Assembly (NCBI GenBank): GCA_024280895.1
Contig: JAJRPI010000013.1
Coordinates: 1 to 37,058 of the forward strand
Reading direction: 5' to 3'
Origin: Alphaproteobacteria bacterium
GTDB taxonomy: Bacteria > Pseudomonadota > Alphaproteobacteria > Rhizobiales > JAKIUO01
Length of the DNA: 37,058 nucleotides
Shown here: in pieces, positions 2,698-33,267 of the stretch
Layout of the letters: every line of letters begins with the position of its first letter
Numbering within the stretch: position 1 is the first letter of the stretch
Position numbers and translations under genes: made by a program
Notes under the pieces: generated by a model
The model's database searches: none
The model's input: only the letters and a program-made list of their open reading frames with translations
Told to the model about the DNA's origin: nothing

Positions 2698-2720
2698 TCA
2701 TTTCGAAGATCAACCATAAA

Positions 2721-2751
2721 AACGCTGCTCCAACTGGAGCAGCGTTTTTTT
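2721..2751 (+). terminator. Intrinsic terminator after bamA
   Basis: A perfect 11-bp stem, AACGCTGCTCC (2721-2731) with GGAGCAGCGTT (2736-2746), encloses the four-base loop AACT and runs straight into seven T residues. It starts 23 bases after the bamA stop codon. This is a textbook Rho-independent terminator and implies that lpxD and later genes have their own promoter or depend on read-through. Confidence 0.95.
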
Positions 2752-2887
2752 GTTTACAATGGTTCTTTGGTTGCGATTGTGCAGGGGATGATTTTGAATT
2801 TACGGGATTAAATGCTATTTCCTTGTTATCGATTCAAGACCATCGTTGCGCTTGAGCAAGCTTTACGGACAGGAGTGATATACAAGT

Positions 2888-12009: not shown

Positions 12010-12276
12010 ATGGAAAGATTTATTGGTGGTAGCCCGACCGGCGTACTTGTTCGCTTGATCATATTGTCGGTCATTGTCGGTGTCGTTCTCGCAGCTTTGG
12101 GTTTAGAACCATTTGATGTTTTTGATGGCGTAAGAAGACTGGCCGAACGCATTTATAATATGGGCTATGACGCTTTTGAAAAAGGCGTTTCATACTTCTT
12201 GACTGGCGCTCTCCTCGTCGTGCCAATCTGGTTTTTTGCCAGATTGTTTAAAACTGGTCGTTCGAAGAAAAGCTAG
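12010..12276 (+). CDS. Small inner-membrane protein, DUF6460-like
   Basis: The protein has 88 residues with two predicted transmembrane helices (about 13-31, VRLIILSVIVGVVLAALGL, and 62-80, YFLTGALLVVPIWFFARLF) and a basic C-terminus. The opening RFIGGSPTGVLVRL and the two-helix layout match the DUF6460 family, common in Hyphomicrobiales and without known function. AGGAGAG lies just upstream of the ATG (GGCAGGAGAGACTATG). It stands alone, preceded by the podJ terminator and converging on lexA. Confidence 0.8.
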   Translation: MERFIGGSPTGVLVRLIILSVIVGVVLAALGLEPFDVFDGVRRLAERIYNMGYDAFEKGVSYFLTGALLVVPIWFFARLFKTGRSKKS

Positions 12277-12287
12277 GGTTTTCCGGT

Positions 12288-12317
12288 AACAAGGCACATC
12301 TTTCAATATGCCTTGTT
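12288..12317. repeat. Inverted repeat between convergent genes
   Basis: AACAAGGCA (12288-12296) and TGCCTTGTT (12309-12317) form a perfect 9-bp stem with a 12-base loop, between the DUF6460-like gene and the end of lexA. It could be a shared transcription end for both convergent genes, but neither side has a proper T-run, so it is recorded only as a repeat. Confidence 0.5.
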
Positions 12318-12417
12318 GCTGGCGCTGGTACAAAAGCAATGTGTTGCAGGGTAAGCGCTTGCGTCAATAATCGTGAAGTGTCGCAAGCTTCAGAAATTAC
12401 CTTTGCAGCATTGAGTT

Positions 12418-13104
12418 CTAATAGTTGCGCAACAATCCAATCAAGCGTCCTTGGACAACCACCTGGTCGGGACCGTATATGCGGGTCTCATAGGCGGGAT
12501 TAGCTGCTTCCAGAGCGATGCTAGCTCCTTTGCGGCGCAGCTTCTTCAGCGTTGCTTCTTCTTCTTCGACAAGATAGGCGACGACTATATCCCCATTATT
12601 TGCGGAGCTGGTCTTGTGGATTATCACGGTATCACCATCGAGAATTCCCGCATCAATCATCGAATCGCCTTTTACCTCAAGGGCGAAATGTGCCCCCTTG
12701 GAGACCATCTCGGGGGGAACAACAACGCTGTGGCTTTGTTCTTGAATGGCTGAAATCGGTACGCCGGCGGCGATGCGGCCCATAACCGGTACATTCGTGC
12801 CAATAGGTTGACCAGAGTTTACTCCCCCGGAAGAACCAAATTCACCTGATAGCACAGAGCCGCCCTCGCCAGTACTATCTGGAATAACTGAATCAGGGAG
12901 TTTGACGATTTCCAGTGCCCTGGCACGATGGGCCAGCCGCTTGATAAAGCCTCGTTCTTCAAGTGCGGTAATCAAGCGATGAATACCAGATTTGGATTTA
13001 AGATTCAAAGCTTCCTTCATTTCTTCGAAGGAAGGAGAAACGCCTTTTTCGCTGATCCGCAGATGAATAAACATCAACAGGTCTTTTTGCTTTTGGGTCA
13101 ACAT
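12418..13104 (-). CDS. lexA: SOS repressor LexA
   Basis: LexA represses DNA-damage genes and cleaves itself when RecA filaments form. The start is ATG at 13104: it gives the family opening [13 protein letters not shown] and has AAGGGAG eight bases upstream, although the frame stays open further back. The protein has 228 residues. The N-terminal winged helix is about 1-65. Cleavage should fall between Ala113 and Gly114 (GRIAAGVP). The catalytic dyad is Ser148 (KGDSM) and Lys187 (ATLKKL). The linker between domains is long and Gly/Ser-rich, as in other alphaproteobacteria. Two LexA boxes in its promoter indicate self-repression. It follows moaC at 112 bases. Confidence 0.97.
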
Positions 13105-13135
13105 CGAATAAACTCCCTTTTCAGCATCGTAAACA

Positions 13136-13150
13136 GTTCTTAGAATGTTC
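13136..13150 (-). promoter_or_regulatory. LexA (SOS) box, lexA-proximal
   Basis: On the + strand the site reads GTTC-TTAGAAT-GTTC, an exact match to the alphaproteobacterial direct-repeat operator GTTC-N7-GTTC. It ends 32 bases upstream of the lexA ATG, where it would block transcription or its start. Confidence 0.9.
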
Positions 13151-13179
13151 TTGTACAAAACATGAACATATTTATAGCT

Positions 13180-13194
13180 GTTCTGATTGTGTTC
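13180..13194 (-). promoter_or_regulatory. LexA (SOS) box, lexA-distal
   Basis: On the + strand the site reads GTTC-TGATTGT-GTTC, a second exact GTTC-N7-GTTC match, 44 bases (about four helical turns) from the first and on the same DNA face. It lies in the moaC-lexA gap, 22 bases after the moaC stop. Confidence 0.88.
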
Positions 13195-13216
13195 TGCAAG
13201 GAAAAAGACAGTCATT

Positions 13217-13702
13217 TTACGGTTTCGTGGAAAAAGATCCTGATTTTCCACCATGCTTTTCAAGCAATTTGATTTGTGAAATGACCATACCGCGATCGAC
13301 TGCTTTGAGCATATCATAAAGGGTCAGGCAGGTGATGCTGACGGCCGCAAGAGCTTCCATTTCAACGCCGGTTTTACCGGATACACAGGCCGTTGCCGTG
13401 ACTTTATATCCGGGTAAATCAGGATCGGATTCTATATCGACACTGACTTTCGTGAGAGCCAAAGGGTGGCACAAAGGAATAAGATCAGATGTCTTTTTTG
13501 CAGCCAAAATCCCTGCAATACGGGCGGTTGCCAATACATCACCCTTTTTAGCCTTGCCGCTTTCAACCAGCTCCAATGTCTCTTTGAGTGTCGTGATTTG
13601 TCCAAAAGCAATGGCAGTACGAGAGGTTATTTCCTTGGCCCCGACATCCACCATGTGGGCTGCGCCGCGCTTATTGAGATGGGACAGTTTATCATTGCTC
13701 AT
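13217..13702 (-). CDS. moaC: Cyclic pyranopterin monophosphate synthase MoaC
   Basis: MoaC, acting with MoaA, converts GTP to cyclic pyranopterin monophosphate, the first step of molybdenum cofactor synthesis. The protein has 161 residues, the usual size. Seen: [13 protein letters not shown] near residue 75, [14 protein letters not shown] near 109 and [14 protein letters not shown] near 127, the conserved active-site segments. The ATG overlaps the trpC stop as ATGA, so moaC is coupled to the trp operon. In many alphaproteobacteria moeA comes next; here lexA follows instead. Confidence 0.97.
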
Positions 13703-29613: not shown

Positions 29614-32448
29614 ATGCTCGAGAAACAATTTATACCCGGCGAAGTCGAACAGCGTATTTACCAGCAATGGGAAGATGCCGGTGCTTTTAAAAGCCAACCG
29701 GATCGTGTCGCAGCGGGAGCCAAGCCCTATTGTATTGTGATCCCCCCTCCCAATGTCACAGGGTCGTTGCATATGGGGCATGCCCTCAATAATACCATTC
29801 AGGATATTCTAATTCGGTTTGAGCGTATGCGTGGCAAGGATGTTTTGTGGCAACCGGGGATGGATCATGCCGGTATCGCCACGCAAATGGTTGTGGAGCG
29901 CCAGCTTGCCCAGAACGAGGAACCGGGGCGGCGCGACATGGGCCGAGAAGCCTTTGTTGAACGTGTCTGGGAATGGAAAGAAAAATCCGGGGGCACCATC
30001 ATTAACCAGCTGCGCCGCCTTGGGGCATCTTGCGACTGGTCGCGTGAGCGCTTTACGATGGATGAGGGACTGTCCAAGGCTGTGCGCAAAGTATTTGTGG
30101 AACTATATGAAGCTGATCTGATCTATCGTGATAAGCGCCTTGTTAATTGGGACCCTGTCTTTCAAACCGCTATTTCCGATCTCGAAGTTGAAAATATCGA
30201 AGTAGATGGGCATTTCTGGCATTTTAAATATCCGCTGGAGAATGGTGAGACCTATGAGTTTCCAATCGCTCATAACGACGAGGGCGAGCCAATCGAGTGG
30301 GAGACACGCGATTATATCTCCATTGCCACAACTCGCCCCGAAACCATGCTGGGAGATGGCGCGGTCGCCGTTCATCCAAGCGATACGCGTTATGCGCCGA
30401 TTGTTGGCAAGCGCGTTTTGCTACCATTGGCAGATCGCTATATCCCGATCATCACAGATGAACATCCTGACCCTGATTTTGGCTCCGGTGCCGTGAAGAT
30501 CACGGGCGCACATGATTTCAATGACTATGCAGTGGCCCGGCGCCATGATTTGCCCTTGCTCATCATCATGGATGAACAGGGCCGGATGGCCGGGGAGATT
30601 CCTGAAAAATATATCGGCATGGATCGCTTTGAAGCCCGCAAGCTGATTGTCGAAGATATCGATAAGCTTGGTTTGCTGCTGGAAGTCGAGGACAAGAAAA
30701 TCGTGCAGCCGTTTGGTGATCGCTCCCATGCGGTGATTGAGCCGATGCTCACCGACCAATGGTATGTCAACGCCAAGGAACTCGCTAAGCCAGCCATAGC
30801 TGCCGTGAAAGATGGCCGCACGAAATTTGTGCCTGCTAACTGGGATAAAACCTATTTCCAATGGATGGACAATATCGAACCTTGGTGTATCTCGCGCCAG
30901 CTTTGGTGGGGACATCGTATTCCGGTCTGGTACGGGCCGGATGAAAAAGTTTTTGTGGCCTACACAAGTGAAGAGGCTCATGAGCAGGCCGCCAAACATT
31001 ATGGCAAAGCGGTTGAGCTGCGCCAGGATCCAGATGTGCTGGATACCTGGTTCTCGTCTGGCCTATGGGCATTTTCGACGCTGGGTTGGCCAGACAAAAC
31101 ACCCGAACTTGAGCGTTACTATCAGACCGATGTATTGGTCACAGGGTTTGACATTATCTTTTTCTGGGTCGCCCGCATGATGATGATGGGGCTGCACTTC
31201 ATGGATGAGGTGCCGTTCCATACCGTTTATGTGCATGCGTTGGTACGCGATGAAAAGGGAGCCAAAATGTCCAAATCCAAGGGCAATGTGATGGATCCTC
31301 TTGATCTTTTGGATGGCATTGAGCTTGAGCAGCTTGTCGAAAAGCGCACCATTGGATTGGTGAAGAAAGACGCCAAAGCGATAGCCAAATCAACGCGCAA
31401 GGAATATCCCGACGGCATTCCGTCTTATGGCACAGATGCTCTGCGGTTTACATTAGCGGCCATGGCAGCGCAAGGGCGCGATGTGCGCATGTCATTACCG
31501 CGGGTTGAGGGGTATCGCAATTTTTCCACTAAACTATGGAATGCCGCCCGTTTTACACAAATGAACGAATGCGTACGTCAAGAAGATTTTGACCCGGCCG
31601 CCTGCAATGAAACCATCAACAAGTGGATTGCCGGTGAGATGCAAAAGGCTGCTAACGCCGTGACTTTGGCCATTGAGTTACATCGTTATAATGAGGCGGC
31701 CAGTGCTATCTACAACTTTATCTGGCATGTCTATTGTGACTGGTATCTCGAATTGATCAAAACCGTTTTGAACGGCAAAGATATCGAAGCGCAGGCCGAA
31801 ACAAGAGCGATGGCGGCCTTTGTCCTTGATCAGATTCTCAAGCTGTTGCACCCGTTCATGCCCTTTATTACCGAGGAGCTTTGGCAAAAGCTTGCCGAGC
31901 AGGGGCCCGAACGCGACAGCCAGTTGATCCTTGCGCAGTGGCCAACCTTTTCGGGGCTAGAAGATGAGGCAGTCAATCGTGAAGTCGATTGGCTGATCCG
32001 TTTGATTACAGAAGTGCGCTCTGTTCGTGCTGAAATGAATGTACCTGCTGGAGCCAAGGTGCCTTTGATCTTTACAGGAGCGGGAGATGAGATAAAAGGC
32101 TGGATCGAAACGCACGATGAAACGCTTCGGCGTATTGCAAGGCTTGAAGAGCTGAGCTTCAGCACGCAGACACCTGATGGCGCTATCCAGATGATCCTTG
32201 ATGACGTTACTATAGCAATGTCATTAGAAGGCATTATTGATGTCGGCGCCGAGCAGGCACGGTTGAACAAGGAAATTGACAAACAGCGCGGTGATATCAA
32301 AAAAATCGAAGCCAAGCTGGGCAATGAAAATTTTACAGCACGCGCACCGGCCGAAGTCGTTGAAGAGCAAAAACGCCGTAAGAATGAGGCGGAGCAGGCA
32401 GTGGAAAAACTGCAAATAGCGCTCAAGCGCGTGGAGGCACTTGGTTAA
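29614..32448 (+). CDS. valS: Valyl-tRNA synthetase ValS
   Basis: ValS charges tRNA-Val. The protein has 944 residues, normal for bacteria. The class I signatures are both present: the HIGH motif as HMGH (residues 53-56, in NVTGSLHMGHALN) and KMSKS (551-555, in KMSKSKGN). The editing domain inserted between them includes TTRPETMLGD and GSGAVKITGAHDFNDY. An anticodon-binding domain follows, and a C-terminal coiled coil (about 875-944, EQARLNKEIDKQRGDIKKIE) typical of ValS. It is the last + strand gene; no clear terminator hairpin follows directly. Confidence 0.98.
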   Translation: MLEKQFIPGEVEQRIYQQWEDAGAFKSQPDRVAAGAKPYCIVIPPPNVTGSLHMGHALNNTIQDILIRFERMRGKDVLWQPGMDHAGIATQMVVERQLAQNEEPGRRDMGREAFVERVWEWKEKSGGTIINQLRRLGASCDWSRERFTMDEGLSKAVRKVFVELYEADLIYRDKRLVNWDPVFQTAISDLEVENIEVDGHFWHFKYPLENGETYEFPIAHNDEGEPIEWETRDYISIATTRPETMLGDGAVAVHPSDTRYAPIVGKRVLLPLADRYIPIITDEHPDPDFGSGAVKITGAHDFNDYAVARRHDLPLLIIMDEQGRMAGEIPEKYIGMDRFEARKLIVEDIDKLGLLLEVEDKKIVQPFGDRSHAVIEPMLTDQWYVNAKELAKPAIAAVKDGRTKFVPANWDKTYFQWMDNIEPWCISRQLWWGHRIPVWYGPDEKVFVAYTSEEAHEQAAKHYGKAVELRQDPDVLDTWFSSGLWAFSTLGWPDKTPELERYYQTDVLVTGFDIIFFWVARMMMMGLHFMDEVPFHTVYVHALVRDEKGAKMSKSKGNVMDPLDLLDGIELEQLVEKRTIGLVKKDAKAIAKSTRKEYPDGIPSYGTDALRFTLAAMAAQGRDVRMSLPRVEGYRNFSTKLWNAARFTQMNECVRQEDFDPAACNETINKWIAGEMQKAANAVTLAIELHRYNEAASAIYNFIWHVYCDWYLELIKTVLNGKDIEAQAETRAMAAFVLDQILKLLHPFMPFITEELWQKLAEQGPERDSQLILAQWPTFSGLEDEAVNREVDWLIRLITEVRSVRAEMNVPAGAKVPLIFTGAGDEIKGWIETHDETLRRIARLEELSFSTQTPDGAIQMILDDVTIAMSLEGIIDVGAEQARLNKEIDKQRGDIKKIEAKLGNENFTARAPAEVVEEQKRRKNEAEQAVEKLQIALKRVEALG

Positions 32449-32506
32449 ACATTGTATTTTGTGGATAAGTAGCGAGAGTTAAGGTGTGATCGAGAGCACT
32501 TTTAAT

Positions 32507-32546
32507 ATTCACCCATAAGGTCGCCAATTTACATTGGGTGAATTGG
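32507..32546. repeat. Nested inverted repeats downstream of valS
   Basis: ATTCACCC (32507-32514) and GGGTGAAT (32536-32543) are perfect 8-bp arms. A second overlapping pair, CCAATT (32524-32529) and AATTGG (32541-32546), would compete with it. There is no T-run, so it is not a clear terminator. It lies about 60 bases after valS in the long gene-free stretch. Confidence 0.5.
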
Positions 32547-32695
32547 TGCAATAATTCAGTATTGCCGAATTTGATCTATATTTTAAAGACTTCTATATAG
32601 TCAGTAGGAGGATGAATAAAGCGGGAAGCTATTCACGTAATAATTCAGGATAAACAGATCTTTATAAATTTTTTACAATATTCGATTTGATACTC

Positions 32696-32725
32696 TTGAC
32701 AAGGTACACACACTTGATCTTAAGT
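32696..32725 (+). promoter_or_regulatory. Putative sigma-70-type promoter in the valS-rpmG gap
   Basis: A consensus -35 hexamer TTGACA (32696-32701) lies behind an A/T-rich tract (32661-32692) that resembles an UP element. The -10 is weak: CTTAAG (17-base spacing) or TTAAGT (18-base spacing). Transcription would start near 32731 and run to the right into the hairpin cluster, towards no protein gene on that strand. Confidence 0.5.
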
Positions 32726-32730
32726 GAAGA

Positions 32731-32974
32731 AAGTAGAAATATTTGAATTCCCAAGTCTGTTACAGGTCCGCCGCATCTCCTGAGACTTGGGATGTGTGGG
32801 TTAGATTTTATTCGGTGTGAGTGGCCTCCTCAATATCACCGATTAGCTGTTTAACCTGATATGAGCCTAATTTATTGGCTCATGAAACAGACTTCTGAGT
32901 ATCCTGGTTCGGATTTTACCCCGCTGCCGAAGGGATATGAAGAGGTCTGTTTCGTATTCTGGGCACCCTTTTTT
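32731..32974 (+). ncRNA. Candidate structured small RNA, no recognised family
   Basis: Four hairpins follow the promoter-like element. H1: TCCCAAGTCT (32749-32758) with AGACTTGGGA (32783-32792), plus inner CAGG/CCTG. H2: TCGGTG (32812-32817) with CACCGA (32837-32842), plus inner TGAG/CTCA around a pyrimidine-rich loop. H3: ATGAGCC (32861-32867) with GGCTCAT (32877-32883). H4: 14 pairs (32882-32895 with 32942-32955, two G-T), plus inner TATCC/GGATA and TTCGG/CCGAA. Six T residues follow at 32969-32974, 14 bases beyond H4, so the end is not a classic terminator. No open frame with a ribosome site covers it. I could not match tmRNA, RNase P RNA, SRP RNA or 6S RNA. Strand and ends are inferred. 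Confidence 0.45.
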
Positions 32975-33079
32975 CAACATCTCCAAGCATGACTGATTAT
33001 GCCGATGATCAAGGCGCAAAAATATGCGCAACAGATCATACACGGTTCACGCAAGCGATCCTGTGTGTAAATGTAGTAT
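32975..33079. other. Remainder of the gene-free stretch before rpmG
   Basis: This holds one further compound hairpin: ATGATC (33005-33010) with GATCAT (33034-33039), enclosing GCGCA (33014-33018) with TGCGC (33025-33029). It is not followed by a T-run on either strand. No gene or tRNA is visible. Confidence 0.45.
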
Positions 33080-33117
33080 TTAGAAAATAGAAAACGGAGC
33101 TATTTTATTTTAGCTTC
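33080..33117 (-). terminator. Possible terminator of rpmG, overlapping its last codons
   Basis: On the - strand GAAGCTA (33117-33111) pairs with TAGCTCC (33102-33096), with one G-T pair, around an A/T loop, and the U-rich stretch GTTTTCTATTTTC follows. The stem overlaps the final codons and stop of rpmG. The stem is short, so the call is tentative. Confidence 0.4.
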
Positions 33118-33267
33118 TTTGAAATCGCAATGTTTGCGAATGACGGGGTCGTATTTTTTCAAAACGAGTTTTTCCGTAATATTTCTAGGGTTTTTCTTCG
33201 TGACGTAGAAATATCCAGTACCCTCTGTGCTTACCAGACGGATTTTTTGAACAGCCGATTTTGCCAT
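33100..33267 (-). CDS. rpmG: 50S ribosomal protein L33
   Basis: A 55-residue protein of the large ribosomal subunit. It begins [20 protein letters not shown], continues [20 protein letters not shown] and ends with a single Cys-containing tail ([12 protein letters not shown]). With only one Cys it is the zinc-free (C-minus) form; the zinc form has four. AAGGAAG lies just upstream of the ATG. A good promoter is found 65 bases upstream (33332-33359), so it is transcribed on its own, separately from rnr. Confidence 0.96.

Follow-up and report, generated by a model that had tools for sequence, protein, structure and literature searches.

What occupies the 651 bases (32449-33099) that separate valS (29614-32448, + strand) from rpmG (33100-33267, - strand) on contig JAJRPI010000013.1 of the alphaproteobacterial assembly GCA_024280895.1 (Rhizobiales, JAKIUO01)? 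A reading of the letters alone, made on the same 37,058-nucleotide (nt) stretch of DNA that is analysed here as a whole (the window), had set out this gap between valS and an rpmG on the other strand, in agreement with our coordinates, and had seen in it a possible undescribed regulatory RNA. We propose that the segment very probably encodes an orthologue of EcpR1 in extended form, an antisense small RNA (sRNA) acting in trans, here about 240 nt long and folded into four hairpins. What was computed in its favour is a conserved, covarying structure, the loops of EcpR1, the synteny of EcpR1 and a widely distributed 3' module; only the 3' half is undescribed, the 5' half being known.

EcpR1, known to restrain the bacterial cell cycle, is among the few sRNAs linked to core cell-cycle control in Alphaproteobacteria. 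In Sinorhizobium meliloti its gene lies between divK-pleD and rpmG; stress and the stationary phase induce the RNA, which consists of stem-loops (SL) 1 and 2 plus a terminator and uses the SL1 loop to repress gcrA and dnaA, with no need of Hfq (PMC4414408). The S. meliloti RNA is also processed, the dominant form being a 101 nt piece that comprises SL1-SL2.

The hairpins and their relation to EcpR1

The features of the locus are as follows; R1 and R2 are covariance models of SL3-SL4 described below.

32696-32725, + strand: probable promoter, TTGACA at 32696-32701, 18 nt, then TTAAGT at 32720-32725; boxes conserved in the genus
32732-32974, + strand: presumed transcript of about 243 nt, from about 7 nt past the -10-like box to the T-run, drawn from promoter-like boxes, conserved structure and T-run
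32749-32792, + strand: SL1 of EcpR1, 10+4 pairs, with CAGGUCCGCCGCAUCUCCUG at 32763-32782 (RF02500 alignment)
32798-32856, + strand: SL2 of EcpR1, loop GAGUGGCCUCCUC at 32819-32831, anti-Shine-Dalgarno-like (RF02500 alignment)
32860-32883, + strand: SL3, 7 pairs, first hairpin of the extra 3' module, with loop UAAUUUAUU in place of the usual CAACGCCCUCUUUG (R1/R2)
32884-32953, + strand: SL4, 13 outer pairs and inner helices, conserved tip UCGGAUUUUACCCCGCUGCCGA at 32909-32930; probable terminator stem (R1/R2)
32969-32974, + strand: T-run, 15 nt past the SL4 stem; possible end of transcription (sequence)
33100-33267, - strand: rpmG (ribosomal protein L33; Pfam PF00471, 58.7 bits), convergent neighbour and synteny marker of EcpR1

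Folding of the gap yields SL1-SL4 on the + strand, as the sequence-only reading had described, and these four hairpins are real and not due to chance: the + strand of 32720-32976 reaches -96.4 kcal/mol (z = -6.35, with 0 of 200 shuffles equally good), and the stems are kept in relatives with compensatory changes. The minus strand of the same segment gives z = -3.96 in the same shuffle comparison. The further claim that this density of hairpins lies far above that of other gaps was overstated, as the EcpR1 region does have the lowest z among all scanned gaps of the window (-5.83), yet two others come near, namely 2698-2887 (-5.24, a plain terminator hairpin) and the minus strand of 12190-12389 (-5.22, overlapping a small open reading frame, ORF). 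Both of these look ordinary. The element is present as a single chromosomal copy in the window's genome.

A search of Rfam, which the sequence-only reading had suggested as a check, returned no match in the window at the gathering score; at an E-value threshold 32746-32861 matches RF02500 (Atu_C6, EcpR1) with 38 bits and E = 0.0011, so that the description of the RNA as novel is lost for its 5' half and stands for SL3-SL4, for which no Rfam family was matched. The 20-nt SL1 segment CAGGUCCGCCGCAUCUCCUG is identical to the RF02500 consensus and recurs unchanged in every genus copy and at most loci of the order; the stretch that is identical in described homologues (C16-G36, with loop UCCGCCGCAUCU) is found here as well. 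SL2 shows the expected variable stem and UCCUCG-like loop, here GAGUGGCCUCCUCA with A and not G as its last base, and the loop GAGUGGCCUCCUC is common to the window and RF02500. As to synteny, the L33 gene is convergent and downstream in 71 of 83 EcpR1 loci and on the same strand in none, and rpmG is likewise convergent to EcpR1 in the window. Because the SL1 loop is identical, SL2 is shared and the synteny is kept, we take the first half (32746-32861) to be the orthologue of EcpR1.

The likeness to known EcpR1 (SmelC291, SmrC10, Sra33; RF02500, Atu_C6) thus takes in the SL1 loop segment, the CCUCC loop of SL2, the rpmG neighbour and the setting in the Rhizobiales/Hyphomicrobiales. The RNA of the window differs in having SL3 and SL4 where the known form has an ordinary terminator, in its presumed length (about 240 nt against 171 nt at full length) and in A/T-rich stems that score under the Rfam cut-off; we think the low RF02500 score is due to these A/T-rich, diverged stems. 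The window is not alone in this, for relatives of RF02500 occur in 284 of 397 sampled genomes of the order, including all five genomes of the genus, and although 223 genomes reach the cut-off, the other 61 fall below it as the window does.

The SL3-SL4 module

SL3-SL4 (32860-32953) is absent from the Rfam model RF02500, lies directly behind SL2 in the window, and is carried by the relatives in the genus as part of the entire four-hairpin unit. R1, built from ten sequences with the window and its genus excluded, matches the window at 32859-32951 (26.3 bits, E = 9e-4) as well as every genus copy, and finds 52 genomes across the order. The enlarged model R2 scores the window at 46.1 bits and finds 57 of the 397 order genomes, which fall into 26 genera of 13 families. 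In a sample of 270 genomes from the class it matched only the window's own, and none of roughly 267 other Alphaproteobacteria. Of 43 loci outside the genus, 42 have an EcpR1 SL1 and/or SL2 motif immediately upstream in the same orientation. Since the module occurs in 57 of 397 genomes, nearly always behind EcpR1, and 35 of its 38 pairs are compensated, EcpR1 is a four-hairpin RNA in much of the Hyphomicrobiales.

The covariation is extensive. Across 50 sequences 92.4% of cells are paired, the 35 pairs just mentioned have changed on both sides, all 10 pairs of the SL4 outer helix are compensated, and the covariation score of 0.635 compares with 0.222 +/- 0.010 in shuffled alignments and at most 0.10 with the partners slid. 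Folds of single sequences independently give the same SL3-SL4 hairpins. Within the genus, a plain MAFFT alignment of the whole RNA has 9 compensated pairs, where shuffles give 3.4 and none of 500 reaches 9, and 5 of the 17 pairs of the SL2 main helix have changed on both sides. A lack of covariation in relatives had been named beforehand as an outcome that would speak against an RNA; the opposite was seen.

Of the same 43 outside loci, 42 retain the SL3 loop CCCUYUU and 42 retain the SL4 loop ACCCCGCU. The stems thus turn over and the loops stay, a pattern to be expected if the loops make contact with other molecules. The loops of SL1, SL2 and SL4 are retained in all six genus copies; the SL3 loop motif CGCCCUCUU is absent from them and from the window, whose SL3 loop is UAAUUUAUU. 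The motif is lost in this genus, and the window is therefore a lineage variant of the extended form. In Rhodomicrobium and relatives (family f30; L118, L181-L183, L188) it is SL2 that lacks its CCUCC loop, with the loops of SL1, SL3 and SL4 kept, so loops have been lost singly in different lineages.

The tip motif of SL4 (TCGGATTTN{0,1}ACCCCGCTGCCGA) is found in five genera from five families of the order; Rhodomicrobium udaipurense, Rhodomicrobium sp. R_RK_3 and bacterium MnTg02 are the named carriers among the matches listed, and a pattern scan of genome contigs for the motif listed mostly chance matches. Behind short EcpR1 genes, a search for remnants of SL3-SL4 gave low scores only, the better ones mostly where SL1-SL2 itself folds.

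A 2015 study that included a Rhodomicrobium homologue gives two hairpins and a terminator; EcpR1 of Methylosinus sporium, detected as a transcription unit, shares SL1 and SL2 with the RNA of the window but was described with two stem-loops only (PMC12403871). In open-licence papers on EcpR1 we found no description of SL3-SL4, an earlier one elsewhere being possible, nor did we find the SL4 motif as text in the open-licence literature.

Two side observations concern copies of the module or of the whole RNA. Four loci of family f2 (L319, L320, L322 and L323, in genomes G219, G343, G199 and G239) hold SL3-SL4-like copies without a canonical EcpR1 SL1 upstream, with a conserved CCCCGCUGCCG tip and a CCCUCU loop, and at least three of the four genomes have second copies; these are possibly a paralogous sRNA family. 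Genome G002 has two different extended EcpR1 copies (L012 on contig C64 and L002 on C242), each with a convergent rpmG, and a contamination of 6% suggests two mixed strains in the assembly, duplication being the alternative.

Transcription, proposed action and rival explanations

The consensus TTGACA pointed out in the sequence-only reading is indeed in the gap, and together with a TTAAGT/TTTAGT box at 17-18 nt spacing it is kept in 6 of 6 genus copies, the -10-like box being TTTAGT in most relatives. Because a generic sigma-70 scan did not list the TTGACA/TTAAGT pair, its promoter function is only inferred. A T-run after the hairpins had also been noted; it is present, though not directly behind a hairpin, and a terminator scan found no classical terminator there. 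From this T-run 15 nt on, from T-runs immediately behind SL4 at two other loci (L008, L010), and from families without SL3-SL4, which have other hairpins after SL2, some with T-runs, we infer that SL4 doubles as the terminator stem. The idea of a stand-alone regulatory RNA has fared well, given the conserved structure, the promoter-like boxes conserved in the genus and a synteny shared with a known sRNA that is transcribed on its own.

By analogy with EcpR1, the RNA of the window would be transcribed independently, with TTGACA as part of its promoter, and probably when growth is slow or the cell is stressed, as is the case in Sinorhizobium. Its SL1 and SL2 loops, which are exposed and rich in C and U, would then pair with mRNAs of cell-cycle regulators and block their translation, and gcrA, repressed by EcpR1, may be repressed here too. 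The likeliest contact in the window's lineage would be the SL2 loop on the gcrA ribosome-binding site, an antisense repression of translation, with SL1 as a putative conserved contact for other targets. SL4 probably serves to terminate the transcript and to shield the 3' end of the RNA. Further contacts may be offered by the invariant tip of SL4 and, in other families, by the SL3 loop, whose contact is presumably lost in the window's genus.

With gcrA and dnaA chosen as candidates from the literature, we ranked 255 genes with simple ORF calls from 20 sampled genome stretches and the window. The gcrA start region ranks first of the 255 for the SL2 loop (-21.7 kcal/mol against a mean of -12.3, standard deviation 2.8), which is suggestive, at about 0.03 by our own estimate after correction for two candidates and four loops. 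The duplex predicted in the window's genome joins UGAGGAGGC and the AUUC that follows it in gcrA to GCCUCCUCA and GAGU in the SL2 loop, leaves a single G bulged and covers the Shine-Dalgarno. G002 and G004 show the identical pairing and G003, G019 and G166 a close one; it is kept in G000 too, and is weaker in G001 (a mismatch) and G051.

Several points weigh against an extended EcpR1 that acts in this manner. At 38 bits the window stays below the RF02500 gathering threshold of 60 bits, a curated detection limit and not a biological trait, and a standard Rfam scan therefore misses EcpR1 here. In the 50-sequence alignment (A3), the sequences were fitted to the model and one row comes from an antisense match. 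The best predicted gcrA contact is made by SL2, whereas it is SL1 that pairs with gcrA in S. meliloti, and dnaA is unremarkable at rank 32 of 255 for SL1. As SL2 resembles an anti-Shine-Dalgarno, many ribosome-binding sites match it in part. Across the order, gcrA-SL2 pairing did not differ significantly between genomes with and without EcpR1 (Mann-Whitney p = 0.10), and although gcrA sites with GAGGAGGC occur in 8 of 28 genomes with EcpR1 against 0 of 10 without, these genomes are not independent.

We give about even chances to SL3-SL4 being a second regulatory module, whose invariant contact loops CGCCCUCUU and UUACCCCGCUG would act on further mRNAs or on a protein, with the Sinorhizobium form lacking the module. 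Alternatively, SL3-SL4 might serve a standard EcpR1 as an elaborate terminator and regulate nothing itself: the long SL4 stem stands at the 3' end, with T-runs right behind it in L008 and L010, and where a family lacks the module, ordinary hairpins resembling terminators occupy its position. A terminator, however, has no need of invariant loops, and here ACCCCGCU and CCCUYUU persist while the stems around them are replaced, which makes this account rather unlikely in our view. Nor do we favour two neighbouring elements, SL1-SL2 being a standard EcpR1 and SL3-SL4 a separate conserved element with a function of its own, either a second sRNA or a processed 3' fragment. The cutting of S. meliloti EcpR1 to its SL1-SL2 form and the second SL3-SL4-like copies without canonical SL1 in family f2 would fit such an arrangement, but at 42 of the 43 outside loci the module sits directly behind EcpR1 at near constant spacing, and the stretch between the two showed no other terminator, a separate promoter not having been specifically sought; we regard it as unlikely.

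Far less probable still is a bidirectional terminator or palindromic array without any function as RNA. It would suit a position between the convergent valS and rpmG, the palindromic elements and a minus strand that folds well too, but it sits badly with loops that are conserved while stems vary, with conserved promoter-like boxes, with an identity to EcpR1 that is strand-specific and with a single copy in the genome.

Should an extended EcpR1 with a second module indeed occur in 13 families or more, half of the molecule there lies outside the Rfam model and the published target predictions, and two invariant loops are left to be matched with partners; the annotation could be repaired at once.

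Other features of the window

Searches for tRNA and tmRNA found none, a plasmid collection gave no match, and the matches to the Avashort thermometer and satBaMV in the E-value-threshold Rfam search are weak chance matches. At 2718-2752 (+ strand) a strong intrinsic terminator (AAAACGCTGCTCC...GGAGCAGCGTTTTTTT) lies between an Omp85 (bamA-like) gene and lpxD. At 12010-12276 (+ strand), in what looks like a gap ahead of a lexA-like gene (12418-13317, - strand), there is an uncalled 88-codon ORF (MERFIGGSPTGVLVRL...) that probably encodes a small membrane protein.
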